Shown here: piece by piece, positions 10,759-63,998 of the stretch
Layout: each line of letters opens with the position of its first letter
Numbering within the stretch: the stretch's first letter is position 1
Assembly (NCBI GenBank): GCA_030272155.1
Contig: CP126191.1
Location: 2,688,501 to 2,752,500, forward strand
Direction of reading: 5' to 3'
Origin: Tetradesmus obliquus
Taxonomy: Eukaryota; Chlorophyta; Chlorophyceae; Sphaeropleales; Scenedesmaceae
DNA: 64,000 nucleotides
The notes under the pieces: generated by a model
The model's database searches: none
Told to the model about the DNA's origin: nothing
The model's input: only the letters and a program-made list of their open reading frames with translations
Translations under genes and position numbers: made by a program

Positions 10759-13700
10759 CCTTGTGCTGTTTCCACTGCAGGCAGCGTCCAGCTGCCGTCT
10801 GCTTGCCCCACTATGCCCATGCTGTGTTGCTGCTGCTGCTGCAGCAGCTGCTGCGCGATGCTGCGCAGCATGGAGCTGCTGTTGTTGGTGTGTGGCGGCT
10901 GCAGCCTCCGGGGCAGGCTTGGCTGCAGCTCCCGGATGAGTGCACCAGGTGACGCCTGCAGGGTAGATCAGACAGATAGTACAGTAACAACACAGCGCAA
11001 ACAACAGCAAACATTCTGTTTGCTTGCAAAGCTGGCGTTTCTGACAAGTGCTTGTGCTCACAAGCACGCTGCTGGCAGCACATGCAGGTGATGAAACGTG
11101 GCAAACGCAGCACGTCCCACACAGCAATCACAAACGCATGCTGCACATAGGCTCGGCACATCGGCTAGCCGCCAGGCATGAAAGCTTGTGTCATTTCATG
11201 CTCATCGCCGCACCTGCAGCAGGTCCCATTCCACAAGGCAACAAATGCAGCCACCCTTCCCACACTACCAACACACATATGCTGCGGCATGTGGCTGCGC
11301 ATGCTTGTTCCCAGGCACTCAGTTCATTTCCATCGCCGCACCTGCAGCAGGTCCCTCTCCATGAGCAGCACCAGTGCGGGCAGGTAGCGCACATCAGCCA
11401 CCAGGTATGACAGCAGCTCGGGGGACAGCGGCCGCGGCGCAGTCAGCCACAGCCTGAAGCCAAATGTTGAGAAGATGAAAATTGAATATGAGTAACAAAA
11501 GCACGCGGCAGAAGGCATGGATAGAGACGTGTAAGGGCATATAAACGCGGTTCAAATGCAAGTACACAGCCCAAAACAGCACTGCACAACAGCCAAATGG
11601 CAGCAGCAGCTCACATCGGGGTGCTCTTGGTCATCGCCACCACCTCCATCTTATTGGGGTGCGCCAGCCCATACGCAGCCAGCAGCACCTCAAGTCTGCG
11701 GCGCAGCTGCGGCCGCCCCCGCACGTGCAGGCCCTGCTGCTGCTGCACCGCCTCTAGCAGCATGAATGCCAGCTGGCTGTCGATCACGTTGGCGGCTGAC
11801 AAACCGAATTCAGAGCGCAGCAGCGGCAAATCCTGCAGGCAGCATGACGTGGCAGCGGGCACCCGTTTCTGCTTCAATGATTGCAAAAGGTGCAACATGA
11901 ATGCCAGCTGGCTGTCGATTACATTGGCGGCTGACAGGCCAAACTCAGCGTGCAGCAGTGGCATGTCCTGCAGGCAAGATGACGTGGCAGCGGGCACCGG
12001 TTTTGCTTATAAATGCGAAAGGTGCAGCATGAATGCCAGCTGGCTGTCAATCACATTGGCGGCTAACATGCCAAACTCCGCAGCCAGCAGCGGCATGTCC
12101 TGCGGGGCACAATGGTGGACACAAGACGATTGATGTTGTGATGGACCTGCGAACTATGGAGAGCAGCACGATGAACAGTGTAATGCAGCAGAACTCATAC
12201 AGCACCACCCGCACACTGCACACCACAATAAAATTCCTGAACATGGCAGACGCCCAAGTGTGGTGCAGCCACCCCACCTGGCTCGCGTCCTGCACCACTA
12301 AGGTACAGCCTGGGTCCTCAAACACTGCAGCCAGCCCAGCCACCAGCTCTGCTGCAGCAGACTCGCTGCTGCTGCTGCTGCTGCCGCTGCCGCTGCTGCT
12401 GCTGCCGATGTGCTGCTGCATGCCTGCTGCCACCAGGTCGATAATGTACACAGTGTCAGGCCAGCCGGCATCTGCAGCAGGGAAAGGGTGGCGAGCGGGC
12501 GCAGGCATGCACATACCGCACGGGAGGCTGACAGGCAGGGCAAGAGCAGCACAGCAGCATTGGCAGCGGCCACAACTTCATAAGGGCATGCTGCCACTTT
12601 TCAAACAGCCGCAATCGCATACAGCTCTGCACAGCTCCACACGTATCATATGCTGCCACTGCTACCCCGGCAGCTGCAGCTACAGCGCCTGCAACTGCAC
12701 CTATCGTGCCAACCTCGGCTCACCTGCGCCGCAGCCAGGCACCGCTGGCGCCATGAAGCTGAGCACCACGGTCACGCTGCCGCCATCATGATGCATGCAC
12801 TGCCACAGGCCTACACTGCTGCCGCACATGGCAACTCCCTCACCTGCGCCGCGGCCAGGCACCGCTGGCGCCATGAAGCTGAGCACCACTGTCACGCTGC
12901 TGCCCTCGCCCAGCCAGCTGCTCTCAGTGTCCATCTACAACATGGAACGCTGCTGCTGCGCATTGGCGCTGCAACGGCGGCAGCAGCTGCTGCTGCAGCA
13001 CCAGTAACAGACCACCAGCAAACACGCTTGCACCTCCAACGACCCAACATGCAAATTAAAGGTCTAATTCCCTGCCACCCACCTGTGCCGCGGCCAGGCA
13101 CAGCTGGCGCCATGAAGCTGAGCACCACCGTCACGCTAGCGCCCTCGCCCAGCCAGCTGCTCTCAGTGTCCATGCCCAGCAGCGACACAGCCGCCATGTG
13201 CTGCAGCATGGACCTATAGGCGGGGCTGGCAGCGCTGCTGATTGTCACCACCTGGGAGTGGGAATGGAGAATGTCAGGGGGCGTTGCACGCAGGAACGTT
13301 CTGGTTGATCCCTGAAATTTGGGTTCGAAGCAACACAAGATGCCACAGCATGCTCAACAAGCGAGCGGCAAGTACTATCCGTTTGTATGCAAGTGACATT
13401 GGCAAACGTCAACCATGCAACGCTGCAGCTTGCTGGAGTCGAGCGCCTGGCAGCAGCCGCACCTGCACAGGGCCGAGGCCAGGCAGCGTCTGCAAGTAAT
13501 CCAGGCTTGATGCAGGGCCGCGCTTACGCTCCTGATGCGGCCCATACAGCGCAGCCATGCGCGCACTGGCAGCAGCACGAGCACGCGCAATGTCGCCGGC
13601 TACTGCAGTGGCACCTGTAGTGTTGCTGTGGCTGGCTGTAAAGGCAGCAGCAGCGGCAGTCGCAGCAGCAGCTCTGCTGCCCAGTGCTGCAAAGCTGCGG

Positions 13701-16700
13701 CTAGCAGCAGCAGCAGCAGCAGCAGCAGCAGGCGCATTGTATGGTGCACGTGCTGCAGATGCTGCATCTGCTGCTTGTATGGCTGCTGCTGCTGCTGCTG
13801 TCTCAGCAGGCTTGGCTGCAGCAGGCTGTGCAGCATCACTTGCAGTCAGCTCAGAAGATCTAGGCTGGCGTGTTGCTGCTGCTGCTGCTGCTGCTGTTGC
13901 TGCTGCTTGTTGTTCGTTAGCTGCTGCCGCTGTACGTGCTTCTGCGGCTGCTGCTGGCGCCTTGAGTACCTGTGCCGGCAGCAAGTGACTAGCACCCAGC
14001 TGCAGCGCATCATTCTGCTTCAGCAGCAGGGGCACATTGAACAGCCAAACACTGTTCTGCGTCGCGGCGCCGCTGCTGCTGCTGCTTTTGCTTGCAGGCG
14101 GCCTGAGGTTGAGCCAGTAGGGTTCTGCTGTGGCCAGCATGCCCTCAAGAGCAGCAGCCACCTCAGCAGACATGGCCTGCACCTTTGACTTCTGCCCAAC
14201 TGGCGAGCTGTCCTGGATGAATTTCACTGCAGCCAAGACATGCGCATGCACCAGGAAACGGCGGCAAGCAATCGGCACGTTCTGCCCCAAGTATAAAAGG
14301 TGTGCTGCACTGTGTGAGGACCAACCAACATCAGGCGCTGCATGTGAGGCATATGCGTACTAGTAACATGCCAGTGTGCTTACAGCAGCCAAAAGTAGGC
14401 GGTTCAGCATGTGGCACTGCCGTTGCATCACACCCATAATATCCACAGAATCGACACCTGTAGCAGTCAAGGACCAACCCTTTCAGTGCCTGTGTATCTG
14501 ACTGCATGCAACAACAGTCCTGTTTCATGCCTGGCCTTCAACTGCATGCTGCGACTGCTCCCGCAGCTGCAACACAGCCTGCCTGCTGCAGACAGACACC
14601 GCTGTTTACATCTGACGCCTCACCCTGCCACTTACCTAGGCTCATCGCGCCAACAGGCACACCGTGCTGCAGCATGTAGCGCACACGCCCGAGCTTCGCA
14701 GGACTGACGCTGATATAATGCCGCACCGCGCTGCGTGCAGCCGCCGCCAGAATGCCCTGCCGAATCTTCCGCACATCTCTCGCACCCACAGCCTCAGCCG
14801 CAACAGCCGCCACAAGGCCAGCCGACGCAGCTGCACCCGCCTTACTCACGCCGAACGCAGCATACACAGCATCATCCAGCAGCAGCAGCAGCGCCTCAAG
14901 ACGCTCCCTGGAAGCGCAGGTGGTTACGGCAAGCAGCCGAAGCGTTACGCGGTTCTCGCGCGCGTCACTGCAGGCCTCAGAAAGCACCATCCATGGGCAG
15001 GAGAGCAGCAGCTCGCGGGTGGTGCTGGGCGCCTTGTCGCTGGGGCCGGTGCCGCTGCCGCGCTTGCCTGCGTGGCTGAACCTGCCGCGCATGGCTGACA
15101 GGAAGTCTCCTGCATAAAGAGTTACAGCGTGCATGCAGGTCAGACATTACAAGCAAGCATCATGCAGCATTATGAATACTCACATAGCCTGCAGCAGGCA
15201 GAGGGATGAGGCGGTTAGTTGAGGCAGCGGGTACGATACTCAGAGCAGCAGAGGGGTCTGGCACACGCGGCGGATGGTGTGGAGCTGAGATGCTGCTCGC
15301 TGTGAGACAAGCAGGACAGGATGTGTTTGTGTGGTGGGCGTTGCGCCACAGCTACAATGCTGCTGCTGCTGCATGCGCGCGGCATTAAACCAGACATACC
15401 ATCCGGCAATTCAGCTGAGCGACCCAGCGCAGTGCCTTGCATGCGTTGCTGCACTGCCTCCGCCAGCACCCTTCCCCCTTCCCTCCCCTGCCCTCCCAGC
15501 CCCCTTCACGCACCTGCCACAGACATCTGCATGACCACCAACCTCCTGCTGCACGTCACCGGCGGCCCCTGCTGCTGCCACTTGGTGACAGTTTCCAGTG
15601 TCTCTAAAGCCAGCTGATCCACCCCCAGCAGCCATGCAGTGAGCATGTAGCAAGTCGCCACACCCTGGCACCACTGTGCAAACACCCGAGGGTCGCACAG
15701 CAGGCAGATGTTGTTGAGGTAGATTGAATATGACAGGAAGCTGCGCGCGAAGCTGCCGCCCTGCAGCAGCCGCCGCTGCAGGAGTGGCACCAGCAGGTCA
15801 TCCAGCGAGAATCTGCAGGTTTGCAGCAAATGAATGAATGATTACAATGTTTAAGAGGCCGTGTAACTGTGCAGGCTGGCCTAAAAGAGCATGCAAGCAC
15901 AGGCTGCAACTCGCAGGAAAGCACAAGCAGAGGAGCTGAGTGACCAGTGCCAGTCACAGTGCAGCATAGCTAACAGTTTGACTGCAATGGCTGCATTCCT
16001 GCAAGCAACTGCGTCGCTGCAGATGCAGTTGCACGGCACACATCTGCTCTTCGACGATGCACACATGCGCATCCTGTCCTTGCATGTCCTGCTGCACAGA
16101 ACTGTTGACGCAACAACATCAAGTGACACGTCCTCTGCTGTCGCACACCTACCTCGCCAGAGCTGGCGCGATGCTGCTCTGTATCTGTGCCAGCATCTCT
16201 GCTGTCTCCTCATCCTCCTCCTGATCACTGGACGCATCTGCTGCACCTGCCGCTGCAGCTGCATCTTCTTTATCACTGGACGCATCTGCTGCACCTGCCG
16301 CTGCAGCTGCCTGCTCCTGCTCAATAGGCTCTCCTGCGTCAGCCTGTCCTGCCTGCGCTGCAGCAGCTGCTGCATCATCCCCAGCAGCTGAGCCAGAACT
16401 CTGCGGAGACGGAAAACCCTCAAGATCTGCATGTAGTGTATTCGCATACTCACTTATAATTTGACCATACTGATCCAGCTGCACATCCGCTGGTACCGCT
16501 GCTGCTGCATGCTCTGTCCCAGCTGTGTCTTTGCTGCCTGTGGTTGCAGTGCCTGATTCAGGCTGCTGCTGCGTGTGCACCTTAGCTGCACCTGCTGCTG
16601 CGCCACGTGCCTCTGCTACTGCAGTGCTGGCAGTAGCCCCAGTTCTTGCTGCTGCAGCTGCACTGCCCGGCCCATCACTGTCATGGTGGGGAGTGGAGCC

Positions 16701-18801: not shown

Positions 18802-18853
<52 letters not shown>

Positions 18854-20014
18854 AGTTCCTGTCGCTGCTGCAGAACGACCTGATCAGGGACATGGTGGTC
18901 ATCTACGCAGACAAGAAGATCTACACCGCACTCAGGTTTGGGGTGCCGGTGTGCGGCCACCCCACCATTGTGCATGTGAGTGCCATGGAAGAATGGGCAT
19001 GCCAGCTGTCACCAGCACCACACCAACAGCCGCTCACATGGAAGGGCAGCAGCTGTGGCGCTGGATGCAGTCGGCAGCTGCTGCAACAGACAGATGCTGT
19101 TGCTCGACACGTTGTCCCTTTTGGCGGCCCTTGCAGGCAGCTGTCTGGCTGCAGGGACCTTTCAGTCACACAGTGGCATGCAGTGCCGCTACTCAGCCTT
19201 GCAGACAAGCAGCTTACTGTATTGACTGGCTTCTGTCAACTGTCACTGCTGACATCACCTGCTGTGCTTCTGATGCGCATGCTGCTGCAATGTAACTGCA
19301 GGGTGGGCTCACGTCTGCCATTTTCGATGAGACGTTTGGCGTGCTGCTGTATGCTGCGGGGCGCTACAGCCACCTGGAGCTGGAGCACGGAGTGTTCACG
19401 GCTCGCTTAGAGGTGGACTACAAGAAGGTGCGGCTGAGCAGGGATTGCTGTTCACAGCCACTGTCACCAACATGTCCTTGTTGGTATATGGTTGCTTTGT
19501 CAGGGCCTTACTTGCCAGCAGCGCACGTGTCTGCAACCATGCAATACCAGGTTGACCAAGTTATAAGGCGCCAGCAGTGCTAGCGGCAGCGCTTCTGTGT
19601 GCACAACAGCTGCAGCCGATGCTGCTGAAAGCATTGTGCTGGCACCTTGATGATGCGCTGCTCGTCCGCGGCCACGTGCAAGACTCCTAGCAGACCGGGC
19701 ACGACAGCTCATCTTGGCAAGGCGACCTTGTTTCCTCGCTCACGCTGCATTCCTCCTTGTGTTGCTGGTGCCTGCTCGTGCCTGCTGTTGCACTGGTGCA
19801 GCCGCTGCCCGCGGAGTCCACTGTGCTGTGCACTGCGCAGGTGGACAGCCTTGAGGGGCGCAAGATCTGGGTGGCGGCTGACCTCACAGACCCGCTGCAG
19901 CAGACCGTGTACGCATCCAGCAGGGCACTCTTTGTGAAGCCCAAGGCGCCAGTGCCCACGCTGGCGCCTGCAGGAGCCGCGCCTGCAGCAGCGCCAGCTG
20001 CTGCCAACGTTTGA
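17896..20014 (+). CDS. hot-dog fold acyl-CoA thioesterase (THEM4-like), organelle-targeted
   Basis: Four exons: 17896-18320, 18804-18975, 19302-19427 and 19802-20014. Phases close, for about 311 residues. The N-terminus is rich in Arg, Ser and Thr and short of acidic residues, as in plastid or mitochondrial transit peptides. The core is a 4HBT domain: exon 2 ends and exon 3 begins across the hallmark VHGGLTSAIFDETFG, where the His-Gly-Gly and Asp are the conserved active-site elements; TARLEVDYKK and PLPAESTVLCTAQV...GRKIWVAADL complete the fold. It should hydrolyse acyl-CoA thioesters. One oddity is a run of 16 Leu codons (CTG) at the start of exon 2; the next acceptor, at the end of the CTG run, would break the frame, so the leucines appear to be translated. 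Chain-length specificity cannot be told. Confidence 0.82.
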
Positions 20015-22138: not shown

Positions 22139-22185
<47 letters not shown>

Positions 22186-22786
22186 CATGGATACAAGCAG
22201 CATAGGCAGCGACAGCAGCGCAGGACGCAGCAGAGGGAAGCACCACCACCAGCAAAATCAGCACGACACCAAGCAGCAGCAGCAGCAGCAGCAGCCGTAC
22301 CACCCACAGCAGCAACAGCAGCAGCAGCAGGACACAAAGCAGCGGCCGGACGAGCCGCCGCAGCAGCAACCCAAGTCGCTGCGGCTCTCAGCCATCTCAA
22401 AAGAGCAGCTAGAGGCACACGCAGCAGCGTACGCGGCAGCAGCGGCAGCGCACATGAGCTTACACAGCCAAGCGCGGCACGGCTATGCCACAACATACAG
22501 CCACACGCCTTCGTCATGTGCTGCCCCAGAGGCCACCACTGCACCTATCAGCCGCATATCTAGCTGGATATCTACACTACCCGACCCTGAGTCAGCACCC
22601 TCTGTTGGGCCTGAGCCAGAGCAAGCCCCCTCAGTAAGCAGTAGCAACACAGTGCACAGCTACGAGGAGGCAGCGTGCGCGCCGTCGCTAGCGCGGCCCA
22701 GCATCTGGCAGAGCAGCGTGGATTCAGACGTAGAGCGGCAACGGCTAGGCTGCTGTGGGCGGCTGAGCTTCCTGGGAGCCATTTGA
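22064..22786 (+). CDS. low-complexity Asp/Gln/His-rich protein, function unknown
   Basis: The frame ends at 22786 and encodes about 240 residues. It has a (GAT)n poly-Asp tract at 22138-22185, several poly-Gln blocks, a Ser/Pro-rich middle and a Cys-containing C-terminus (GCCGRLSFLGAI). The mixed composition in the second half and the duplication of its last codons downstream suggest real coding sequence. The true start is uncertain; an acceptor CTGGTTCAG at about 22050 lies just before the ATG, so upstream exons are likely. No domain is recognised. The paired Cys near the C-terminus could be a lipidation site, which is speculative. Confidence 0.45.
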
Positions 22787-22957
22787 GCAGCAGCTGCAGT
22801 AGCAGCAGCAGCAGCAGCAGCAGCGGCGGCGGCGGCAGCTGCAGCTGTTTAGTTGCTGAGGGCGGCCCAGTGTAGGAAGTAGCAGCCAATTGTGCGGCAC
22901 CTGGAGCGGCAGCGGCTGGGCTGCTGCGGGCGGCTGAGCTTCCTGGGCGCTCTTTGA
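22723..22957 (+). repeat. duplicated 3' end of the preceding gene, 171-bp step
   Basis: The last 18 codons and stop (ERQRLGCCGRLSFLGA plus stop) at about 22733-22786 recur at about 22904-22955 with the stop preserved. A CAG/GGC-rich spacer separates the copies. Confidence 0.7.
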
Positions 22958-24500
22958 ATGGCGCCGGCTGCAGCAGCAGCAGCAGCACAGCAGCAGCAGG
23001 GGTAGCTGGAAGCAACTGAGAGCTGTGCACTGTGCAGGCTTGTCTGCTGCTGCTGCTGCTGCTGCCGCTGCTGTGCCTGTGGCTTGTGAGCTGGTTATCT
23101 GCCGGGCGCAGCGGCATGTGCAGAGTTGCACATCTCATGTGGTGCCACTCGCATCAGTGATGGCTTGTTATTTCCCTTGCGTGATGTTTGCTCTGTGACA
23201 TAACCAACGAAAGCAGCGTGTGCCTTGGCACCTGCAAAGTAAGAGTGACATATGCTGGTGTGCGATTGAACCTTTTGCTAGCAGTGGAGTGGTGTCAAGG
23301 AGGACTGCTGTGTTGTGTGGCGTCTTGCGGTGCTGCCCTACCGTGCTTCCCAGGGATTGGGCCACACATGTTTTGACAAGCACTGCTGGCTGCGCTGTGT
23401 AGGCACCCTCTGTACATTGCTGTGCAACAGCTGCAAGCCAGAGCAGCCTACACAGCAAAGTGAACTGCAGCACTGCCGCTCACTGCACAATGCTGCAGCA
23501 AGGTGCCAATTTCTGGACATCAATTGTGGCGATATACAGGATGACTGACTTTGAACCATTGTTGGTTTCAGTGTGCTGCTCTGTACACGTTGGCAATACC
23601 CAAAACATACCACCACACTGTTGTGGCATTGCCATCAACTTCTGCCCAATGTGTGCTGGGCAGCTTTGCATTGCACTGAGTTGGGTATTGTTGGCCATCA
23701 ACAGCAGCACTGTGACTGCTGAACAGCACACGTGGCACTGTGTGCGTGAAATTCAGTCTTTAAAATGTTTGTGTTAGGGTGTGCGCCTCCATGTCAGCGC
23801 TGGTCAACTGTGGTGGCATGGCAGCCATGGTGGCATGGCAGCACTGGCTGTTGTGTTTTGTGAATCGGCCTTGCCTTGTTGTGCACAGCCAAGAGCAACA
23901 CAAAGAGTGCCCGTTTGCCCAGATGATCTCCCACACGTCATAGGTGCCTGCTGCATCTGCTGATGTGCTGTGTATATGCGTCAAGAGGTTCTGCAACCCC
24001 TGGCAGTGGTACCATATGGGCCATGCACAGGGGCATCTTGTGTGATAGCTTGTGGCAGCTGTACATGGAGATCAGGAGGTTTTGAATGCATCCAGGGTAT
24101 CAACAGCAGCATTTTTGATGTTCTGCCTGTGATCTTGGGATATCCCTGTACACGCACAGCTTATCTTGCAACAGCAAAAAATTGAACTTAGGGTATCCCT
24201 GTACACGCACAGCTTATCTTGCATTGCATGTGCATCGTTGTGGCACTAACGGCTGGTCTGAAACAAGCTCTGCTTATGGCCAAACTCTGGCGCCAAGTTA
24301 CATGTAACCGTGTACACTGTAGGGATACTGAACAACAGATCGTAGTACGCGTCACGCTCAGCTTGCGCATGCTGTAGTGATACTATCCTCAAACCATGCA
24401 AATTGGCAAGCTTGCAACACACTACCAGGCATGGTGCTGCGCAGCATGCCTGATGCACATGCACAAGTTAACGCCCCTGCGGAGGGTGGCCGCCCTGCTG
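22958..24500. other. 1.5-kb intergenic stretch
   Basis: No exon found. A two-copy repeat (TATCCCTGTACACGCACAGC with flanks, 54-bp step) lies at 24137-24224. The right part should hold the 3' region of the minus-strand oxidoreductase. Confidence 0.5.
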
Positions 24501-24627
24501 CTACCGCTGCTCAGCCACCGCTGCGCCAGGCGCCTGGCTGCCACTCGGCTGCTGCAGCGTCACCACCACCTTGCCGACACTCCTGCCGCTGTGCATGTAG
24601 GCCAGCGCAGCAGGCAGCTCTGCAAAG
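24501..24627 (-). other. alternative duplicated terminal exon of the quinone oxidoreductase
   Basis: This is a second copy of the last half of exon 6, about 236 bp downstream. It encodes FAELPAALAYMHSGRSVGKV onward to QPSGSQAPGAAVAEQR and its own TAG. An acceptor (GGCTTTTAG) precedes it, and joining exon 5 (ending in phase 2) to it keeps frame. It lacks the first half of exon 6, so an isoform using it would be about 44 residues shorter. Confidence 0.65.
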
Positions 24628-24709
24628 CTAAAAGCCGCGCCAAATGCCCATGCGTAAAGGCAAAAGACGCCATGCACAAAACATTGATGTCCACGCAGAG
24701 AGCCTTCTC

Positions 24710-26639
24710 CTAACGCTGCTCAGCCGCCGCTGCGCCAGCCCTGGCTGCCACTCGGCTGCCTCGTGTATTCACATTTTCACTTGGCTGCATCAGCGTCACC
24801 ACCACTTTGCCGACGCTCCTGCCGCTCTGCAGGTAGGCCAGCGCAGCAGGCAGCTCTGCAAATTCAAACACCCTGCCTACCAGCGGGGGCCCCAGGCGCA
24901 AGCTGTCCAGCTTGTCGTATAGGTCTGCCAGCAAGTCCAGCCTGTCGTATAGCCAGATGAGGTTGAAGCTGTGTATGCAAAACGGGAAGACAGGCGAGAA
25001 CAGCAGCAGCAGGTATCAACAGTTGAAGACCAGAGGGAAACTGGGTCAGCATCCGGATTGCGCGCACGTATAGGCGCACTGTACACAGTGGTCAGCGCTT
25101 GCAGCGGATGTGGCCGCCAGCACAAGCTCCGCTGCTGCTACTAGCGTCCTAGTCGTGCTCCTGCCGCAAGCAGCTTTCATACTGCCAAGGACGTCCCGTG
25201 CATGTGACGCAGCACTAGCAGCAGGATGTGATGCATGCTGCTTTCACAGCAAGCGTCTGATGTTGTGCACACTAAGCATGGTCCACTACTGGAATACCGG
25301 ATGTGCTACTACTGCTGCTGTTGCTGCTGTTGCTGCTGCCATGCTGCTGCGCCTCACTCACCCAACAACGCCCTTGTTGTCGCCTGGCATGGCAATGACA
25401 TCCAGCCTCGGCCGCTACACGCAATCACAGCAATGCAGGAACAGCAGCAGCAGATACTCGTGTTGGCCACGTGCACGTTGTCAGCCTGGCTGACTGGTCA
25501 TGCGCCACACGACCACCGACCAGGAAGTGTGCATGTCACGGCTCCCACTGCTCGAAACTGCCGGACCAGGTTTTGCCCAACCCATGATGGGTCATGCTAA
25601 TGTGCAATGCCTGCCAAAGACATCATACAACACATGAGCTCCTTCACCTATTCACATCACAGCACCTGTGCTGAGCACACAGCCCCACGCCCTCACCTGC
25701 AGCCAGCCCCAGATTAGCTTTGCCAGTGCCAGCAGGGAGGCAGGTGCAGCCAGCAGCACCGCAGGGTTGAGGCTCAGCCTGGCACCAGGCTTGGGAGTGA
25801 GCGAGCCAGCCCTGCGCAAGCACAGCGGTACAGTTGTGTGGGTGTGTGGGTGTGTGGGTGCTTGATACTGTCAGCGGTGAGGTAGAGAATAGGCGTTTAC
25901 ACAGCAGCTGCAGTTGACGGAATGCTGGGGCCGCATTAATGCGTGCACACTTGAGGCAGTGCAGGTAGTGCATGCAGTACAGCACAGTAGCAGCTCACCG
26001 GAACAAACGCAGCACGCAAAGAAGAAAGTGGAGTCCTGCGGCAGCACCCAAAACACCTCACCCAAAGATGACATGGCGCCCGCAGGGGTTGAGCGCCGCA
26101 TAACTCGGCTTGAAATACTCTCCACCCAGGCTGTCCAGTGTTACGTCAAACCCTGGCCGCCCGGCCCGCTTTAGGAAGCCTGACAACTGCTCCGCTATCG
26201 CTGAAGTACCCGACACACGCATTGCAAACTCCATGTGCTGCTGCTGCTGCTGCTGCTGGGATGGGGGTGCAGCCCCTGCAGCGGCTGCTTGCTGTGCTTG
26301 CCCATCACTGCTGCTGCTGTTGTACAGGGAGTCCAGCAGCTGCACTTTGTCTGCACTGCCGACAAGCCCCAGCACACTGGCTTGCTGCCTTGCCAGAATC
26401 TGCAGCGCCTGCAGCCCCACCCCGCCAGCTGCTGAATGCACCAGCACACACTGCCCCGGCCTAAAACCACCGCACTCATAAAGCCCAAATGCAGCCGTCA
26501 GGGTTTGAACTGGGTAGCTGGCTGCCTGCTGGAAGCTCCAGTCTGCTGGGATGGGCCGCAGGTATGCCGCAGGAATTGCCACGTGGCTTGCAAAGGCGCC
26601 GAAACGAAGCACTCCAACAACCCTATCACCTGGCTTGTA

Positions 26640-26691
<52 letters not shown>

Positions 26692-50566: not shown

Positions 50567-53500
50567 ATGGGCAACACCAGCAGCGTGCCTGAGCGCATAT
50601 ACAAAGCAGCAAGGGCTAACGATGTCAGCGAGCTGCAGGTGCGAGCAGCAGCGCATGCAGCGGCACCTTTGGAGGCTCTGCAGCAGCGGCTAGTCCTGCA
50701 AGTCGTGTACTACGTACTTTACCTCAGCTGGTGCTGCAGCAGCACATACCATTGACAGCAAGCGATGCTGCTGGGGGGCACTGCCTCAGTGAGCCGCCAC
50801 ACTGCAGTAGATTGAGGCTAGCAGCGAGCCTTCAAACATAGCACCTGTGCTGCTGCTGCTGCATGTATTCATGCTCCCTGCAGGGCCTGTGCAGAGACAT
50901 GCGGCTGAATGGGGCACTAGATGTGGCCACCAAGCGCAAGTGGCTCAATTGGACAGATGCAGAGGGCCGCACAGCGCTGCACCATGCATGCCAGCGCAAC
51001 TACCTGCAAGTGGCGCAGATGGTGAGCAGTTGACTGTTGTGAATGGCCAGTTCATGCTTGCAGGATAGCCGTCTGTGGGGCTGTGTTGGCAGCAATTGTT
51101 GTGGGCGTTCCCCAGCAGCGTCAGTTGTTTGTCTGCAGTTATGCAAGCATGTGGTGCCTTTATTGGAAGCAGCGCACCACTGCATATGCTGCGTACGCCA
51201 GGGTTCAGCATAGCATCGCAGGCATGTAGACGGCTGCTGGACGTATTGACAGCTGCAGGTCGTGGCGGCAGTAGTTGTGAGTAGCGCAAGCTGTTGCTGT
51301 TGTGTGTCAGTCAGGCAGTGCACTGTGCTCAGGCTGGGGGCAGGCTATGAGATACGACGCAGAGCTGTCTCCTGGAGGCCAATGTCTCACACCTTCCCCT
51401 GCTGGCTGCTGCTTGCGACTGGCCAACTTTAACTATGTTCCTGCAACCAACAAACAACAAATAACTTTGGCAGCTGCTGGACGAGGGCGCTGACGTGCAC
51501 CTCATCGCCCCCAAGCGCGCCGGCGGCGGCTCCCCGCTTGCAGAAGCAGTAGCCGGCAAGCACGAGGGGCTTGTGGAGCTGCTGCTGCGATACGGGGCAG
51601 ACCCCTTCACCGAAAACAAGGCGGGAAAGGCCCCGCTGGACCTGGTGCTTGAGCTGAAGGCGGCAAACATCCTGCGGAGCTTTGAGCGGCACGCGCTGTT
51701 TGCAGGATACGTGAACATGAAGGTGCGCCTTCCTTGGTAGCAGCGCTGGGCCCTTGGCTGCTGGCTTGGCTTGGTATGTTGGTGCATATCGGTCAGTGTG
51801 CTGACAGTTGGTCAAGGACCTATTGTCTGTGGCTGCACTCAGCTGTTTGCAGCTGACCATCCGCGCTGCTGCTGCGCGACTCGCTGTCCTGCAGGTGCTG
51901 CAGCTCAAGGGCTTCAGCCACGCTGCCAAGGACCGCTGGGTGGTGGTGGCGCCGCGCTTCTCGCCGCCATCCGAGGGCAGCGGAGGAGTGGGCATCGTGC
52001 GCATCATGATGCTGGTGTACAGGTGCGGCGCATCACTTTGTTATGTGATGCTGGTGCGTTGTGCTGCCGTGTACTTCCCTGTGCTGCATTGTACTGCACT
52101 GTGCTGCGCCTACTCCTGCTGGTGTACAGGTGCAGCACTGTGCTTTTTTACATGATGCTGATGCACAGTGCTGTCATGTACTTCACCGCGCTGTACTTCA
52201 CTTGTGTATGTACAGTATTGCACTGCACTGCGCATCATGACCCTGAAGCATGCTTCTGCTGTGGCTGGTGCTGGCAGGAATGCTGCTGAGGCTGAGCCGC
52301 GCACCAAGTGCTGGCTGGACGGCGCAAGCATCTTCAGGGCGGGGCAGGAGGCAGTGCTGGTGAGTGTGCAGGCTTTGTGTTAAGCAGCGATTACGCAGAC
52401 AGCATGCAAGAAAATCAACCATGCAAAGTGCACATCCATGCATCAGCTTGCCACCAGATGCCCTGCTGTAGGCATGGCAAACTGTGTTGAAGCACCCCGT
52501 CAGCCCAGCACAAGTTGCTGCAGACGCTAACTCTTACGTGCTTTGTGCCGCTGTCGTCCTGCTGTCGGATATGCCGTGCAGCGCCTGCACGCCAACCACG
52601 AGCAGCCACGCAACGCTTTCACAAAGTACGACAACGGCTGGATGCTCTTCTTCAAGCAGGCCACCACCAGCTACAGCACACCTTCAGCAGCAGCTGCAGG
52701 GCCGACAGGTGGCACCAACCCAGCCGGCGTTGCAGCAGGAGCAGCAGCCACGTATGCAGCATTCATGGCAGTGTGCTATCGGCCGCTTGACCACCTGCAG
52801 GCGCAGCAGCAGATGCGCGCAGCAGGTGCAGCTCCAGCTGCTGGAGCCAACCCCTTTGGCAACTCTGCGCCGTACAGCAGCAGCAGCGGCAGCGGCAATG
52901 CAGCAGCGCAAGGGACGTTCAACCCCTGGTGGCAGCAGCAGCAGCAGAGGCCCGCAGCACTCCCATCTGTAAATCCAGGGCCAAGCAGTGTGCCTACCAG
53001 CCCTACTGGATTCCCCACTAGTCCCATGTCACCATTCACGCAGCAGCAGCAGTACCAGCACCATGCAGGGCTGAGCTTGCAGCCTGCGGGTGCACCGCCG
53101 CAGGCAGCGCAGCAGCGGCCGCCAGCTTTGCAACAGCAGCAGCAGCCGTGGCCTGAAGAAGTGCTGCATGCACAGCCAGGCGAGACAGACGAGCAGTTTG
53201 CGCGGCGGCTGGCGTCTCTGGTGGGTGGTGTAGGCAGCGGCAGCAACAGCGGCGGCAGCAGCCCGAGCGCGAGCGGCAGGCTGTCTTCAGCAGCAGCAAC
53301 AATGCCTAACAGCAGGCTGGGCAGCAGCGCATCACAGCAGCTGCTGCAGCCGCAGCCGCAGCAGCAGCCAGGGCTGTACCCAAGTCTGTCTGCCCCTGCT
53401 GCGGGTGTGACGGGAGGGTCCGCTGATGCTGATGCTCCCTCAGCACCACCTGCTGCTGATCTGCCGCTGACTTCAGCCAATCCATTCAGGCCGGCAGCAG

Positions 53501-55523: not shown

Positions 55524-56220
55524 CTGGCAGTCTTGCAGCCTGAACACGTGCAGGCCTTGCCTCCCACAACCTCCAGCTCACTGAAATTGGCCAGGTTGGT
55601 GCACCCAGGCGCATTGCAGCACAGCTTGGAGGGAAAGCAGCGGCTCAGGGCAGCTGCAAAGTGCATCAGCTGCTGAGCAAGCTCGGCACTGACCACCCCC
55701 TTGATTGCCAGTAGCCACTGCAGGCGCATTCCTGCGCTACCTTGCAAACTGCTGCTGCTGCTGCTGTCGGCAGTTGTCAGGAAACGCCCGCACATCTCAC
55801 TCACGCACTCCTGCTGCTGCAGGAGACTCAGCACTCGATCATTTCCCTGTTCAGAACCCAGCGGCAATGCTGCTGCTGCTGCTGCTGCTTGCTGCTGCAT
55901 AGTGCTGAGCACTGTGCCAGTCCACGCCACTGCCGTGGCAAGGGACTGCACGACAGGCAGGAGCTCTGCTGGCAGCTCCTGCTGCACAGCCACTGGCAGC
56001 AAGCCGTCAGCATGCGCAGCCAGCAGTATGCTGCCAAAAGTATACAAGCTGTGAGCCGACAGTAACAGCCAAGCCGGCCGCAGCTGACTGACATCGCTGC
56101 TGCTGCTGCTGCTGCTGCCGCTGCTGCCAGCGAGGCTGCTGCAAGCTGCCATGGCCACATCCGCTGTCATTGCGGCCTGCAGTAACGCATACACAATGCG
56201 CCTGCAATCCATGCTGCTGC

Positions 56221-56255
<35 letters not shown>

Positions 56256-59200
56256 CTGGAGTGTGGCGCATTGCTTGCTGCTGTGCGAAGCTCCCGCAGC
56301 GCCTGGCCAGCTGCAACCACGCCAGCTTTCAAACTAGTGGCGCAAAAAGCAAAGCACTCCGAGCCCGCACACTGGCCTACCCCTGCTGCTGCTGGGTGTG
56401 ACAGTGCTGCTTGTAGAGGCGCAGTCAGCGCAAATGTCATTCTCTGGCTGTGCACCAGATCTTTGTGAGGATCCGCCAGATAGGCTGGTGTCCAGACTCC
56501 TGATGGATCAGAATACAGCTGCACCCAGCAGCGTATGCAAGCCTCCAGGGCCCGCACAGTGGTGGGCTGCTGCATCACACTCAGCAGCTGCTGGGGCTCG
56601 CAATTCGGGCCTGCATGCAAAGCATGGGCGGGTTACTGCGCCGCAGCTTGCAGGAACCAGGTGGTGATCCTACGCATGCATGCTCCATGCAGTCAGTGAC
56701 AGGAAGACCTCGCCTTGCTCAAGCATCGCTGCATATGCTCGCCGCACCACAAACCAGCCGGCGCTGTGCAGCGCAAGTCATCACGCATCCACGCGCCTCA
56801 AGAGCAAAGGCTGCACTGCAGATAGGAATCAGCATCCCAGGCAGGCTCAAGCACCCACCTGGCACAACGCTTGCAAGCAAGATGCCCAGCTCCGCGGCTG
56901 CTTCAATGTGGCCGGTCTGCACTGGACTAGCCGCCTGCAGCACACGCGCCAGCACTGGCAGCAGCTGCTGCAGCAGCGTCGGCAGGATGCCGCTCGCTAC
57001 TGCTGCATCCACCCTGGCCCCTGCCGCGACAGCGCTGCCACATTCCGGCTGCAGGAGATTCTGCATGCACTTCATCTCTCGCCTGATGCACGGCAGAGAC
57101 AGCAGCAGCACGTGCAGGTCAAGGGACAGCAAGCACAGCTCCAGCAGTACTGCTGCACGGCGCAAGTGTACTGTTGCTGTGAGCAGCGGCAGAGAGGGGC
57201 TGCCCCTCTCTGCCGCTGCCGCTGCCGTTGATGCCGCTGCTGCTGCTGCTTTCGTCTTGCAGGTGATGGTACGGCAGCTCTGCGTCAAAGACAGCGCACG
57301 CAAGCACTGCATAGTACGCAGCAAGCTCCTGCCCTACATGCGTGTCATTGGTGTCCCCGTGATTAACCTCAAAGTGCCCCCAGCCAACAAGCTCTGGCAG
57401 GTGCAGTGCCTCAAGCAAACGCTTGTGCACGGGTGCTAGCTTGGGTGGCTGCTGCTGCTGCTGCTGCTGCTGCTGCCGCTGCTGCTGCTGCTGCTGCGAT
57501 GTAGTGTCAGCCGACAACGAGGCCGGCTGCCTACCCTGCAGCTGCCGGTGCAGCTGCTGTGCTGTCATTGCAGCGTAGCAGCACAGCAGCCACTGCACAT
57601 CGGGAGAGTCGCCGATGTTGCTGCCTGCAGCAGCTGTAGCGATGGTCACTAAGGTGCGGCTGGTGCGCTGCTGCATGCTGCCTGAGATGTCTGCGGCTGC
57701 GCTTGCCAAAATCAGTGGCACCTCCAGGGCTGCGTGAAGGGCACTGCTGATGGGTGGCTTGTACTCAAGGCCTGCTGCTGTGGGCCCTGCCCAGCATCGC
57801 AACGCTGCAGTAGAAAGCAGCAGTACAAGTGAGCAGCTCCAGTTGATGCCTTATTGCTATCGGCGCAGCCTGACCGATGTAGCAGGAAATTTGGCTGCCA
57901 GAAAGACTAGTTGCCATGAGTGCCGGATTCCCAAAGAGCTGGACAGCCAACAAATGTTCTACATCCAGGGGCTGCTGCTGCTTATAGAGGCTGCCACCTG
58001 CAGCCTTTCTGTGCAGATGTAGCGGTGCGTATTGCCCTCATTTCCGATTATGCTGCTATATGCCGCTTGCAGTCTGCATCATCCTGATTCACCCTGCTGC
58101 TCTGCCAACAGCAGCAGAACCGCCCACATGCAACTATCCTCTCTCAAAACCCACCTGCACCAGCCAGCTGCACAGAAGGCAGCAGCAGCGGTTTTATTTT
58201 GGGGTCTGCAAAGCCACTGCTGCCGTCTTCATACATCTTTAGCGCTCCACTATAAGTCCCCAGCAGGAAAGCTGTCAGTTCTGCCAGGTGCAGCGCGGCA
58301 CCTCAGCAGCGCTGGCTCTGTCCAGAGCTGCTGCGAGCGCCTGGCAGGCAACAGTGTAGGCTGACAGGAAGCCTGCAGCAGCGCAGCAAGCAGAGCCATG
58401 GGCTGTCTGTGATGGCAGGTGCAGGAACATGAGCAGGGGCAAGAGCAGCAGCCTCGGCTGATAGGAAGCCTGCAGCGATGCAACAAGCGTTGCTAAAGAC
58501 TGTGTGTCGTGCAGGGTGCAGCCGGAGCAGCTGCTGCAATGACCAACTGACGCAGCAAACGCCGCTGGCTACTGCAGCACTTGCAGAGTGGTGGCATGGC
58601 ATCATAAGCACACAAGCGCTGCAGCAGGGCTAGTCGACCAGGCAGGCTGAGCAGGCAGGCAGGCAGCCAAGCAGGCAGGCAGGCTGCTATATTGCTCACC
58701 AGGCTGGAGGATCTGCCGCCTGGCTGTTGCCAGTGAGGCCTCCTGCCACTCCAGCCCCACATACAGCAGCAGCACGGAGGTCAGCTCCCTTGCTGCTGAT
58801 GAGGATCCTTGCAGGACACTCGGCTTGCTGGCCCACAGCTGCAGCAGGTGGCTGGTGGTGCTGACACAGGTTGTGAAGAGCTGCTGCACATCAGGCGCGA
58901 TGCTCTGCCAGACACAGAGGAGGATAAGGTAAGGGGCAGTACAACAAAGAGATTTGCGGTACACGCTGTGATAAGGGCATGGCGGGCAGTGCTGACACAT
59001 GTCTTGAAGAGCTGCTGCACATCAGGCGCGATGCTCTGCAAGACGCAGAGGAGGATTAGGTAAGAGGAAGTACAACAAGGACTTGCATTGTTATTTTTTG
59101 GCAATGATGAGTCAGTCCAAGGGCCATCCGATGCACATCAGCAGGGGAGCCCTGCAGGACAGATGGGGGGGTTGGAGTGCAGGAGGGGTGGTAGTTGTGA

Positions 59201-59643
59201 CTGGTTTGCACTGCAGAGAAAGGCAGCACACCGGCCAGCACAGCTGATGGCTGGGGTGCAGCTATGAGTGAAGAGCTGATTGAGCGCGGCAATACGATGT
59301 AGGGGAGGCACAACAACTCTGAATACAAGCGTCGCTGAGCAGTGCTGCATGCACAGCCCCACACATGCTCCTGCAGCTCTGCTGACTGCACTGCACATTC
59401 ACTGAGCACAGCCGTGCTGTAACTGCCACGACTTACCCCGTAGATCAACCTCTTGCCAGCTGAACATGCAATTGAGTTTGAATACTCTTGCGCCATCCAA
59501 AACTTCATGCCTTCCAGCTCCCACTGAAGTCGCTCATCATCATCCTCTGCGCTGCTGCTTGCAGCCCGCAGCTCTGCCAGCAGCGTTGTGTATCGGCTAA
59601 AACGCGCTGACCGTGTTGCGTATTGTGGATATGCGGCAAGCAT
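55524..59643 (-). CDS. MYND-type zinc-finger protein, long, apparently frameshifted and with an incomplete finger
   Basis: The gene starts near 59643. Exons I can place are 59643-59437, one from 59151, 58904-58700, 58372-58302, a segment near 57795-57220, one ending at 56859, and 56610-55524. The product is mostly helical with Gln and Ser runs. The last placed exon gives CCNAPGCTNLANFSELEVVG then CTCSGCKTAR, the first half of a MYND finger in the form common in green algae. The second half (Tyr-Cys...His-x3-Cys) is not found: past the donor at 55524 the frame reads on to a stop at 55283 with only a degenerate Cys/His pattern. The reading frame also changes at the 37-nt palindrome at 57183-57219 with no splice sites that fit. 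It may be a pseudogene or contain an assembly fold-back. MYND proteins usually bind proline-rich partners. Confidence 0.62.
57183..57219. repeat. 18+18 perfect inverted repeat with 1-nt spacer inside MYND gene coding sequence
   Basis: GCAGCGGCAGAGAGGGGC (57183-57200), T, then GCCCCTCTCTGCCGCTGC (57202-57219). The good reading frame on the minus strand is different on the two sides. Confidence 0.85.
58359..58491 (-). repeat. duplicated acceptor plus exon start, 97-bp step (MYND gene)
   Basis: GCTGCAG then GCTTCCTRTCAGCC (minus strand) occurs at the exon start 58372 and about 97 bp upstream. Both copies would splice in phase 1. Confidence 0.6.
58875..59060 (-). repeat. duplicated acceptor plus exon start, 131-bp step (MYND gene)
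   Basis: The acceptor and first ~40 bp of the exon encoding SIAPDVQQLFTTCVST occur at 58904 and again at 59035 (SIAPDVQQLFKTCVST). Both are preceded by a similar CTCCTCTGYGTCT tract. Confidence 0.75.
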
Positions 59644-60699
59644 GGCTGCTGGCTGCCCGGAGATGCGCCAGCGGCAGCAGCAGCAGCAGCAACAAGTGTC
59701 TGCACTAGCTAGTACACCAGCCAGCAGGATCGGCCCTTCCTAGCAGCCAGCTAGAACGTGATGACTTATCGATGTCGCACATTTCTATCTGTAAGAGATC
59801 TGCTGCCGCACGGAGTTCGCCAGACTCTAGAAGAGCGGTGAATAGGACGACTTCCAATGTAAGGAGTTGCTTCCCGAGTTAGCTGCACAAATTATACGGC
59901 AAAAACTAAAAGTGGTGGTCCTTGAACAGGCTGGAAGTCCTTGAAAGGCGGTCGAGCCAATGGCTCCAGCCTCTTCACCAAACCCTACTGAGTAAACACT
60001 GTTACAGGCCTGACAGTGACCAGTTTGCACAGCAACCAAAGGCCATTGCCACGCAAAGGACAGGACGGCGCATCTCATTTGCATTTTTACAGCCCAGGCC
60101 TGCAAAGCTGACCTGTCAAGGCACTGCAGTGTCAGGCCTGCATCATGACGCGCACAGGCCTGCACTTGTGGTGCAGACCTGGCGCATGGTATAGAGAATT
60201 GCAGGGAAGACAATACATACTGCAATAGCCGCATGCAACATCTTGCTCACTCAAATATCCAGAAGGGCCCCCTGCATGGTGCATGCACGCATGTAGTCAG
60301 CACAAGTAGGCCTACCACCGACAAGATGATTATGCAGGAAAATAATCAACAGGACAGGCAGGGCTGCACCACCTTGGCACCATGCAAGGCACCAACCGTA
60401 GCAGTGCAATCCAGCCAGCAACACAAGTGTGCAGCTGCTTGTCATGATAAGCGCCCACTATGAAACAGCACGTGCTGTTGACAATAACCCAGCGGTTGCC
60501 TGCAAAACTTGCAGTGATGCAGCCAAAGCGATGCTGCATCATGCCCTCTCCAGCTGCTCCACGCAGCACAGCTTGGCGTGGCACCATGCTGCTGCTGCTG
60601 CTGCTGCTGCTGCATCAAGAGCCCTGTTGTTGGTACGGCAGGACCCATATCTAACTATCATTCCTCCTCTCTCAAATTCCTCAACATCCCATCCTTCCT
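59644..60699. other. intergenic, about 1 kb
   Basis: No exon found on either strand. A (CTG)n run lies at 60586-60612. It holds the promoter of the MYND gene and the 3' flank of the S1 gene. Confidence 0.5.
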
Positions 60700-60960
60700 C
60701 ACATCAACTGCCGATACATCTCCTCCATGTCTGACACCTCAAGACAAAAAGAGCACTGTGATGATGCAGATCCACAGGAATTCGCGCAGCAAACAGTTCC
60801 TGTCCTCACATCGACTGCCGGTATATCTCACTCATGCCTGCCACCTCAAGACAAAAAGAGCACTGTGAATGATGCAGATCCACAGGAATTCGCGCAGAAA
60901 ACAGTTCCTGCCCTCACATCGACTGCCGGTACATCTCCTCCATGTCCGCCACCTCGCGCC
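60700..60960 (-). repeat. triplicated 3' end of the S1-domain gene, 107-108-bp step
   Basis: The last codons and stop of the S1 gene (DMEEMYRQSM plus TGA, at 60914-60943) recur at about 60806 (GMSEIYRQSM) and 60699 (DMEEMYRQLM). The stop is kept in each copy, and the spacer contains CAAGACAAAAAGAGCACTGT. Confidence 0.8.
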
Positions 60961-62128
60961 GCACCCCGCTTAGCTTAATCAGCTTGCGCGGCTTGTCCAT
61001 GCTCGCCACATAAAACGGCTGCAGCGTGCCGATCTGTGCGGCCGTCTCAGGCAGCGCGTGGTTGCTCTCAAGCAGCGCCACATACCCGGCTACACCCACC
61101 GCATATCCCTTTGTCGTCACATTCAGGATCCGGCCAGTCACCATTTTGCCAGATCGCATGCGCGTCTCCAGCTCATCCCACACAAGCTTTGCCCGCACAT
61201 CACCCGGAATGCCAACTGGCTCCAGCTGTGTGTCGCCGTAGGGTGTGGCGCAGGCGGCGAGGCGGAGCTTCACGTAGTCACCTGGCAGTAGCTCGGGGCT
61301 GCTTCGCTGGATGGGCTGGCCGGATGCGGAGTATGGTGTGGCGGCTGCGAGCTCCTGCAGGGGGGTGCAATTGAGTGGATGTGATGTGTGACTAATTGCC
61401 GATGATGGTGTTGCTGTCAGTCAGCTGGAGATGTGATGATGGCGTCGCTGATGGCTACGGCTTATCTCAACTGCTGCTGGTGTGCAGCGTTGGCGGTGAC
61501 GCTGCCCTGGAGTCGCCAGCAGGAGTTGCTCTACTCGCCAACCCAACCCCCAACAAGCTGCCTGCTGCTGCTGGCGTGGGCTGCCATTGCCGCTACGGCT
61601 GCAACGGCGCTCTTGTGCACACACTAGCCGCACAGTCCAGCACAACATGACGTCTTGCTGCACCTGATGCGTTTGTGGCTGCGCATCGCTGTCCCAAGGC
61701 CGCACCTGCTTTGACACCCAGTTCAGGCCGTAGTACCCCGGGTCAACCAGCACCTGCTGCCGCGTGCTGCGCAGCACCTTGGCCAGAATGACCTGGCCCT
61801 GCAGCTGCGGCTGCGAGATATTAAAGCGCCGGAATATCGCGAGGCTCTCCCGCTGCGTACTGCTGAGGAGCCTGTCACTACTGACTGTGGACTGCGGCAC
61901 CGCCTGGAGTTCGGCTTGAGTGATGATTTCAGCTGCTTGGCTAGCGAGAGGCGTGCTGCTGCTGCTGTGGAAGGATGCGTGAAGGGTTGATAGTAGGAGT
62001 CTGCAGAAGGCGGGGCAGGGCTGCTGTACGCTGCCGCATGCTGCTGCTTGGGCCGCTGCTGCTACTGCTGCTGCTGCATGTAAGCTGGTTGGACTGTGCC
62101 GTCCAGATAACAGCAGAGCGCCCAGCAT
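60914..62128 (-). CDS. S1-domain RNA-binding protein, candidate mitochondrial ribosomal protein bS1m
   Basis: Two exons, 62128-61706 and 61354-60914, phase 0 junction, 287 residues. The N-terminus (MLGALLLSGRHSPTSLHAAA) is hydrophobic then Arg/Ser/His-containing, compatible with a mitochondrial presequence. Exon 1 ends in a first beta-barrel-like segment (LQGQVILAKVLRSTRQQVLV). Exon 2 has VWDELETRMRSGKMVTGRIL followed by TTKGYAVGVAGYVALLESNH, the strand pattern of an S1 domain (VxGxI..., GyaVgv.G). Its short length, pairing of two S1-like units and likely targeting resemble organellar bS1 proteins; a translation-factor or RNA-processing role is the alternative. The 3' end has been tandemly copied twice downstream. 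Confidence 0.62.
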
Positions 62129-62539
62129 TGCGATGTGTCTTCGATACAAGAAAAGCTTGGCTGGCAGGCAGAGTATTTGAAGGAAGTGCTGGGCTTGTGG
62201 GTGACTTGTACAGCAGACGAGTGCGACAGGTGTGTCGGCAAACGGCAAGGCGATGATAGTTTATCTCGTTATGAACATAGGCGTCTGGCAATTGATCGGG
62301 GACGGCCTTGCGAGAATGAACCGAAGCTCAGGTGTGTGCGGGCTCAAGCAGAATGACAAGTACAACGAAGCTGTACTACACTATGGGCTTATGATAAGCA
62401 AGATCTACTCAAGCTATTGCATGGTATGACATTTCAAGCTGGTGATCTGGTGTGCAGCGTCTGCTAACTCCTTGGTGTCGCAACATCTGCCGAGACAGCA
62501 TGCATTGTACACACAGGCCTGCTGGCCCTGTTTTCAGCA

Positions 62540-63998
62540 GAAGAACATGCGTGTTTCACTGCTCCAAGGGGTTTGGAGCTGCTGCACCCAAGCAGAAAGC
62601 CGGCAAGGCCAGCAAAGGGACTGCCAAAACACCACAGCAGGTGCGCACCAGGCCACCCATGGTCTTGCACAACATGCGCATGCCAAGACTGTCGCTTGAG
62701 ACATGAAAACACTTTGCAGCTGCTATCTTTGCATGCTGGTGCAGCTGTATAGTAGCCAACCCCACCTGTATCACTGGGCTGCAGCAGCAGACACTTGCTG
62801 CACAGCAGCATGCCACAGACATGCACAGCAGCAGCAGCACTTGCCAGCAAGTGCACACCAGTTGCAGCTAAACTCAGCAGCCTCAACTACTACCTTCTGC
62901 TCCACCACTGCAACTTCAGTTCTGCTGCTACCATGCGGACAGCACCCCCCTGCAGCTGCTGTCAAAAAACTCACTCGGCTGGGGCTCTTGCCGCTGCCCC
63001 ACACCAGCAACAACACACAAATCCTGGCAAAAACGTGTTTAACCATGTCTCATTTATGGTTTCTATCATGCTGACTGGCTGCCTGTTCATGCATGCCACT
63101 GCTGTGTGGCCACATCAGGCTGCTGATCAGGCCCTGGCAGAGGCAGCCAAGTCCCTGAGCATGTCTCATGTATGCTTGTCAGTAAGCTGACTGGCTGCCT
63201 CATTCACATTGGCTGCTGCTGTGTGGCCACACCAGGCTGCTGATCAGGCCCTGGCAGAGGCAGCCAAGTCTCGGCCCAATGTGCGGCCCATCAACCCAAA
63301 AGAGGCAGCCAGGGGCAAGGTGGACTACGTGCAGGTGGGCTGACGCAGTACGTTATGCACAACAGGGTGTTGCTTATGTATGTGAGTGTGTGTACTCAAA
63401 CCAGCAGGTATTTAAGTTCACGTGCTTTGTCTCACACTCGGCGTCAGAACTGCCAGACAAGGGTTGGCCTGGTGTGGCCGGTGCTGAGGTGCCACAGCAG
63501 CAGTCCACACCAGCAGCCGCTCAGCAACACGGCCTCAATGCATCTGCTTGCTGCCTTGTCAGCTTGCCAGCCCACCCTTGCTGCCTGTTTCATATACCAA
63601 TTGTGTTATTGGAAATGGCTGTCACTGCATTGTGCACCGCCCGCCTGGCAGGTCAAGGACTGGGCTGATGGCAATGCAGCAGACCTAGGGGAGCTGCAGG
63701 TGCTGCCCGACAGCTACGCCACAGCATACACAGCAGCAGGCAGCAGCGGCAGCAGCAGCAGCACGGCGGGCGGCAGCAATGCGGCGACAGCAGCAGCAGC
63801 GGAAGGGCCTTTCTACCAGCAGCTGGCGCGGCATGCGCAATACCTTGAGGTATGCAAGGCCCGCCAAGAAGTGTTTGATCTGTGCTGCTGCTGCTGCTGC
63901 TGATTCAGCTCTCAGAGCACCTCAGAGCTTGCTTGCACCATTTGCTAAATGTCAGCTGCTGGATCGCCATGTGTGCCGCACACTGTACTCATTCTTGC
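62540..63998 (+). CDS. unknown protein, 5' part of a gene running off the right edge
   Basis: Recognisable exons: about 62540-62640 (Lys-rich: PKQKAGKASKGTAKTPQQ), 63236-63334 (AADQALAEAAKSRPNVRPIN to DYVQ), 63652-63849 (VKDWADGNAADLGELQVLPD then Ser/Ala-rich to FYQQLARHAQYLE). A further acceptor follows a (CTG)n tract at about 63907. Splice sites are good (GTGCGC, GTGGGC, GTATGC donors). The start lies upstream, perhaps at 62253 or nearby, in the promoter region shared with the S1 gene. I do not recognise the family; the first exon's basic Lys/Ala composition suggests an unstructured head. Confidence 0.55.
63063..63300 (+). repeat. duplicated acceptor plus exon start, 117-bp step
   Basis: GTGTGGCCACAYCAG then GCTGCTGATCAGGCCCTGGC occurs with exon starts at about 63119 and 63236. 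The first copy reads SLSMSH then reaches a GTATGC donor-like site; the second continues into the likely real exon. Confidence 0.7.

Follow-up and report, generated by a model that had tools for sequence, protein, structure and literature searches.

Short tandem duplications crowd predicted exon borders in the green alga Tetradesmus obliquus, probably through frequent local duplication within genes followed by selection

Short tandem duplications occur in the sampled genome of Tetradesmus obliquus at a density of approximately one detectable case per 2.6 kb, with a preferred step, with selection against cases lying within exons and with more cases at exon borders than random placement would give. 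In our judgment, the best explanation, and a probable one, is that local tandem duplication with a unit of 100–140 bp is frequent, mostly within genes, and that selection then determines which copies persist.

We analyzed a 64-kb window (the whole stretch of DNA presented here, to which coordinates refer unless a locus name is given) together with 250 kb from the same genome (15 contigs; 16 places), i.e., 314 kb of an assembly of 104.7 Mb in 17 contigs. Gene structures were predicted with a self-written hidden Markov gene model, which was trained on the sampled sequences using the codon usage of one exon as seed and which learned the splice signals GTGAG[T/C] for donors and TGCAG for acceptors; the predicted medians were 119 bp for exons and 224 bp for introns. 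Compared by eye with the UTP13 protein match P0004 in one gene, the model placed roughly 7/8 of exon ends correctly. Since only about half of the UTP13 acceptors agreed with it, results for acceptors are weaker than those for donors. Duplications were detected by self-BLAST with microsatellites hard-masked, which gave 270 chained matches across the 314 kb, corresponding to 119 tandem-duplication loci.

The preference for a step of around 100–140 bp, as proposed in the initial annotation, was borne out by the step-size histogram, which peaks there across 16 places on 15 contigs. Thus, 67 of the 119 loci had a base step of 100–149 bp, and the mode lay at 110–139 bp (18, 18, and 15 loci in the bins starting at 110, 120, and 130). 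Masked self-matches scoring at least 28, which are not independent events, numbered 72 at lags of 100–140, 27 at 1,000–4,000, and none at 4,000–8,000. Nucleosome spacing would not fit this mode. The median base step was 110.5 bp for intron-only loci and 133.5 bp for border loci; being of the same order in both, the step appears to originate in the process of mutation and not in splicing. Of the 119 loci, 50 showed two or more repeat events and 69 a single event.

We then compared the positions of the loci with shuffled positions. Enrichment at exon borders was confirmed, with 82/119 loci on a border against 49.4 ± 5.4 expected (300 trials, highest value 69; 314 kb). When the window is set aside, the other 250 kb had 73 border loci among 104, where the yardstick is the whole-set expectation of 42%. 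The remaining loci were exon-only (10 observed, 19.1 expected), intron-only (16 and 18.4), intergenic (7 and 25.9), or other (4 and 6.2). While this placement test used all 119 loci, a stricter test used spaced pairs drawn from loci with at most three events and steps of 60–300 (94 of 101, 7 being lost after extension), and here a copy touched a border in 64 pairs against 18.3 ± 3.6 expected.

Selection accounts for part of this excess. The suggestion that selection removes exonic duplications held up, as exon-only loci were about half as frequent as expected and the period was divisible by 3 in 8 of the 10 survivors; given this scarcity and this bias to the reading frame, the border excess in part reflects selection against frameshifts. 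Visibility accounts for another part, because simulated border duplications were detected more often: of 220, at two indel rates, 94 and 85 were recovered at borders, 74 and 59 in introns, and 73 and 43 in intergenic sequence. At steps of 90–160, borders held 48 loci (24.5 expected) and intron interiors 10 (11.8 expected), an excess of borders over intron interiors of 2.3-fold, which fell to 1.6- to 1.8-fold after correction for detectability (rough interval 0.8–3.6, which includes 1). The alternative proposal of a mechanism aimed at splice sites thus gained no clear support, the corrected excess not being significant, and such a mechanism is mostly unnecessary to account for the pattern.

The shortage of loci between genes is the stronger positional signal. 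At steps of 90–160, a single intergenic locus was observed against 14.6 expected, with gene limits predicted by the self-trained model. Selection does not explain this shortage, which depends on that model and points to a bias toward predicted gene bodies. The scarcity of loci between predicted genes makes a link of duplication with transcription possible.

Within the window, all the steps listed in the initial annotation were found in the sequence, some of them weakly (the 128- and 97-bp cases among these). Its statement that each duplication spans an exon boundary was too broad: of the 15 window loci, the gene model puts 9 at borders, 5 within introns, and 1 in intergenic sequence. Its remark that coding interiors contain none is true of the window but not elsewhere, given the 10/119 exon-only loci across the 314 kb. 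On the minus strand, a 3'-5' exonuclease gene (Pfam PF01612) carries an exon piece three times at 12719–13173, with steps of 120, 239, and 359 (120 at 12719–12907; 239 at 12841–13173), 2.6 copies at 11757–12106 detected as self-matches with steps of 135, 132, and 267, and a weak exon-end pair at 11191–11361 (step 128; 43 bp, 86%). A zinc-binding dehydrogenase gene, also on the minus strand (Pfam PF08240 and PF13602), has its predicted last exon twice at 24494–24877 (steps 209 and 236), and an ankyrin-repeat gene on the plus strand (Pfam PF12796) has a pair at 51998–52202 (step 107, 72%) that the gene model places inside an intron. The weak pair at 58348–58521 (minus strand; step 97, 71%) is likewise intronic by the model, although both of these cases had been assigned to splice sites. 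Pairs extend over a predicted acceptor at 22613–23026 (plus strand; step 163–171, partly CAG repeat) and at 58849–59081 (minus strand; step 131, 88% identity), and a pair at 63044–63270 (plus strand; step 116–117) lies near one, with 54/55 identical bases in its best part and clearly lower identity in its upstream part. At 60692–60955 on the minus strand, an exon end with its donor is present three times (steps 107 and 108), the outermost copy stopping at donor +6; this site at 60.7 kb, originally described as the 3' end of an S1 gene, is an internal donor by the gene model. Four loci had been missed: a multi-copy repeat at 724–1342 (plus strand; 64, 141, 229, and 369) and a pair at 1569–1763 (plus strand; step 122), both off borders, a pair between predicted genes at 24130–24223 (step 53; no strand assigned), and a pair inside an intron at 37698–37816 (plus strand; step 86). 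As for gene names, exonuclease, dehydrogenase, and ankyrin matched Pfam, while MYND, RING, and S1 found no confirmation there; a piece of the gene at 55.7–62.1 kb had no Pfam match, nor did most single exons used as queries.

The clearest single case is in UTP13. The exon end at 38940–38996 (plus strand) is joined to the next exon (DGDYAA/DGDFAT) in both orthologous proteins, P0004 and P0005, and the donor with its GT at 38991 is therefore real. A second copy of this exon end and donor, at 39058–39114 on the plus strand (step 118), lies inside the intron at 38991–39303. The two copies are 95% identical with a right edge at donor +6, and past GTGAGC no intron similarity was recognizable (z −0.5; the pair is also absent from the matches of the indel-tolerant spacer test described below). 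Single cases such as this pair may have gained filler sequence in the course of the duplication itself. The gene model called a false mini-exon at 39085–39108, inside the intronic copy, and such copies can mislead gene predictors in this way, which calls for caution.

We next consider how the copies relate to the splice sites. At donor hits, the exonic copy was the 5' one in 41/52, the extra copy lying downstream in the intron; at acceptor hits, the exonic copy was the 3' one in 22/31, with the extra copy upstream. Similarity stopped at +4 to +8 in 15 of the 52 donor hits (14 pairs; 0.69 expected) and ran at least 13 bases into the intron in 31. In the sharp donor hits, the last 30 exon bases were approximately 92% identical, and the intron could not be aligned in register. 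Over 62 pairs, median identity was 0.90 in the exon part and 0.61 in the intron part, compared with 0.55 for shuffled sequence, and the intron part had z > 3 in 13 and z > 2 in 29. A neutral simulation yielded 8 sharp against 71 intron-extending edges, or 1 against 57 (observed, 15 against 31), while simulations in which the intronic copy of the exon changed at 0.35 of the neutral rate gave 16 against 36 and 15 against 21, with a median identity of 0.82–0.84 compared with approximately 0.90 observed. Within the limits of this simple simulation, copied exon ends thus seem to stay alike for longer than neutral sequence would.

A first account of the sharp edges is that copying is bounded by the splice site from birth, a process linked to splicing or R-loops placing the exon end and its signal into the intron with breakpoints at +6 to +8 or −3 to −5. 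This account was favored at first, as right edges fell at donor +6 in 8 cases (0.14 expected) and at donor +7/+8 in 5 (0.28 expected), edges fell at acceptor −4/−5 in 6 (0.25 expected), and mismatch rose from 0.07–0.08 in the exon to 0.71 past +6 (15/19 donor-edge pairs, ungapped segments). A donor motif test, for which the gene model supplied the strand alone, gave 16 sense against 3 antisense occurrences, and 14/14 spacers had no distant copy. However, the corresponding acceptor motif test gave a weak contrast (13 sense and 10 antisense occurrences of CAG; 7 and 2 of GCAG), the simulations with a slowly changing copy yielded an edge peak with no special breakpoints, and diverged intron homology was found beyond the edges. 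It is this homology that led us to demote splice-bounded copying, which we now regard as unlikely.

Evidence for homology beyond the edges came from the spacers. In short-window tests of spacer against flank, scores were slightly above permuted controls, and p < 0.05 against shuffles was reached on the expected side by 3/19 donor-edge, 4/9 acceptor-edge, and 11/35 other border pairs; these mixed results were superseded by a wider-window test. When indels were tolerated, p < 0.02 was obtained for 4/17 donor-edge pairs (2 convincing, 2 short and CAG-like) and 4/7 acceptor-edge pairs, with wrong-side rates of 2/17 and 2/8, respectively; other border pairs scored in 10/20 on the donor side and 3/20 on the other side, and pairs off borders in 5/18 and 7/18. 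Given the wrong-side and off-border matches, the test also detects other local repeats. Spacers matching the intron past the other copy were found at L008_L009 17496 (73%, 55 bp), L016_L017 1337, and L022 5475. Some sharp-edged pairs, at least those with diverged intron homology, are therefore old tandem duplications. Adjacent direct copies with the whole unit homologous were found in the contiguous arrays and, through residual spacer homology, in such pairs; in others, e.g., 38940, no residual spacer homology was detectable. Hypervariable introns were also considered. In the inverted kinase gene pair L027/L028, exons matched at 87–96%, two introns could not be aligned, and the others could be aligned in one half; as support for that idea, the pair is confounded by likely gene conversion between the arms.

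A second account holds that the intronic copies are functional, selection keeping them as alternative exon ends or splice decoys. The gap in identity between exon and intron parts speaks for it, and synonymous differences were in excess of the 27.8% expected from random mutation, at 59/118 in 23 edge-class pairs, 52/106 in 22 other border pairs, 31/52 (counted by hand) in edge-class pairs with an identity of 90% or more, and 3/3 at L008_L009 17496. Heterogeneity between loci had p = 0.051, and the gene model reads both copies of the dehydrogenase last exon as coding. However, constraint on the exonic copy alone would give approximately 44% synonymous differences, near the observed 50%, and steps were not biased toward multiples of 3 (6/23 edge-class pairs, 9/22 others). 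Not every locus is compatible with coding constraint acting on the two copies together, as far more synonymous changes would be expected. In UTP13, the intronic copy has 3 differences per 51 exon bases, all three changing an amino acid, and both orthologous proteins carry the exon end once. In the second copies, the acceptor dinucleotide was intact in 7/9 and 10/13 cases and the donor dinucleotide in 12/15 and 11/15; a splice function is not favored because the donor dinucleotide was lost in the other 3/15 and 4/15. Overall, we think it improbable that function maintains the copies.

An origin from introners (mobile introns) or from some other dispersed element would suit loci that are intronic, widespread, and near-fixed in spacing, and yet this idea was dropped as highly improbable, since units from three places and 14 spacers did not recur elsewhere in searches that followed the best candidates and skipped very common words. 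Units from 38900–39200 and 60400–61200 matched their own place alone, and the unit from 11100–13300 matched its own place and a CTG microsatellite. One spacer had a second match nearby; when an origin of the spacers elsewhere within 4 kb was sought, there was little indication of one, the mean best score being 13.4 against 11.3 for shuffled sequence (21 pairs, one pair being the main contributor to the rise).

Intronic minisatellites form head-to-tail arrays whose copies exchange sequence, to which the 50/119 loci with more than one event are similar. The alga differs in that 69/119 loci are single-event, each tested unit is confined to its own locus, and the majority of loci reach an exon end. 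With duplicated or mutually exclusive exons, a gene carries an exon sequence twice, as occurs in the algal genes, but the 28 edge-class pairs of the alga usually hold a partial exon whose inner side lacks a consistent splice motif by eye. Vaughn and Bennetzen (2014) and Schiml (2016) reportedly dealt with short duplications. In a literature search of incomplete coverage, mostly titles and the openings of abstracts, no account of such a pattern was found. Break repair through Pol alpha-primase/CST is described as leaving short local duplications, some with extra mutation (PMC8355091), and this repair and Pol theta end joining, as far as that account was available, share with the alga the small local tandem duplications; neither a preferred 100–140-bp unit nor a bias to gene bodies came up in the text consulted, and no break-inducing event is known for the alga. 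The algal pattern may resemble the short duplications left by break repair, with selection acting afterwards. In the portion of the sources available, a potato RdRp gene offers a short within-gene tandem duplication crossing an intron-exon border (PMC4974935; review PMC3443670), as in most loci here, except that the copy in the alga normally adds length to an intron already present. Matching contexts at donor and acceptor were found in 1/289 predicted introns (L022 5912–6240; 0.0 expected at that score), which rules out the classical intron-gain route as a class. The idea that the duplications feed intron growth thus stands insofar as each copy lengthens its intron, whereas new introns by this route seem to be rare, with this one candidate.

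Together, these observations favor frequent local duplication plus selection. Tandem duplications, their unit typically measuring 100–140 bp, would arise often and mostly within genes, the unit length probably being set by a repair process and the bias to gene bodies by a link of births with transcription. Within exons, chiefly in-frame duplications would persist; at a border, the exon-side splice site would still be usable, so that the extra copy would just lengthen the intron. Given the shortness of the predicted exons and introns (medians of approximately 120 and 220 bp), most survivors would touch a border. Arrays may then enlarge through exchange between copies, and the array at L002_L003 19320–19859 (approximately 4.6 copies, 98% identity, last copy stopping at +6) has the form expected from this. 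Conversion or exchange, or else weak constraint, may keep the intronic copies of exon ends alike after their intron flanks have diverged, and homogenization by conversion or exchange is the most economical account of the well-kept copies. A bolder reading, which we offer tentatively as rather doubtful, is that exon ends act as conserved templates that repeatedly rewrite their intronic copies, or that the copies are selected, leaving long-lived ghosts of exon ends in the introns, and that the seeding births occur almost only in transcribed DNA, at a set length of approximately 120 bp. The density of duplications in the sampled sequence, with their set length and their concentration in predicted genes, would make the alga a direct test bed for the lengthening of introns and the seeding of new splice sites.

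Tandem duplication is a candidate origin for one predicted intron of 329 bp (L022 5912-6240, minus strand; L-handles denote pieces of a further 250 kb of the same genome, each with its own coordinates). Both the donor and the acceptor of this intron lie within duplicated CAG|GTGRGC contexts, and the repeats at this locus have steps of 163, 166 and 329 bp. At window 24494-24877, a zinc-binding dehydrogenase gene carries two copies of its predicted last exon, each with a different C-terminal tail; these are possible alternative last exons.

Two kinase genes form an inverted pair in L027 and L028 (C11:4522001-4536000). The arms are 95-99% identical along one long stretch, while in the remainder the exons are alike and some introns are unalignable, a mixture that suggests patchy gene conversion between the arms.

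Window 5334-5540, L023 1764-1962 and L004_L005 13965-14152 and 11713-11800 share a dispersed repeat roughly 200 bp long, perhaps a small mobile element, with an identity of 93-98% from place to place. Other repeats were a satellite-like array at L008_L009 1-1146 (191-bp unit, ~6 copies, 91% identity) and, at L006_L007 16096-16372, in a region with few predicted exons, two identical copies of a 71-bp stretch 206 bp apart. The TAGGGTT repeats at window 1936-2003, adjoining ACCCTAAACCC, are an interstitial telomere-like patch. CAG/CTG tracts were very frequent in exons and introns alike; the one at window 12349-12439, among many, has dozens of matching sites across the genome.
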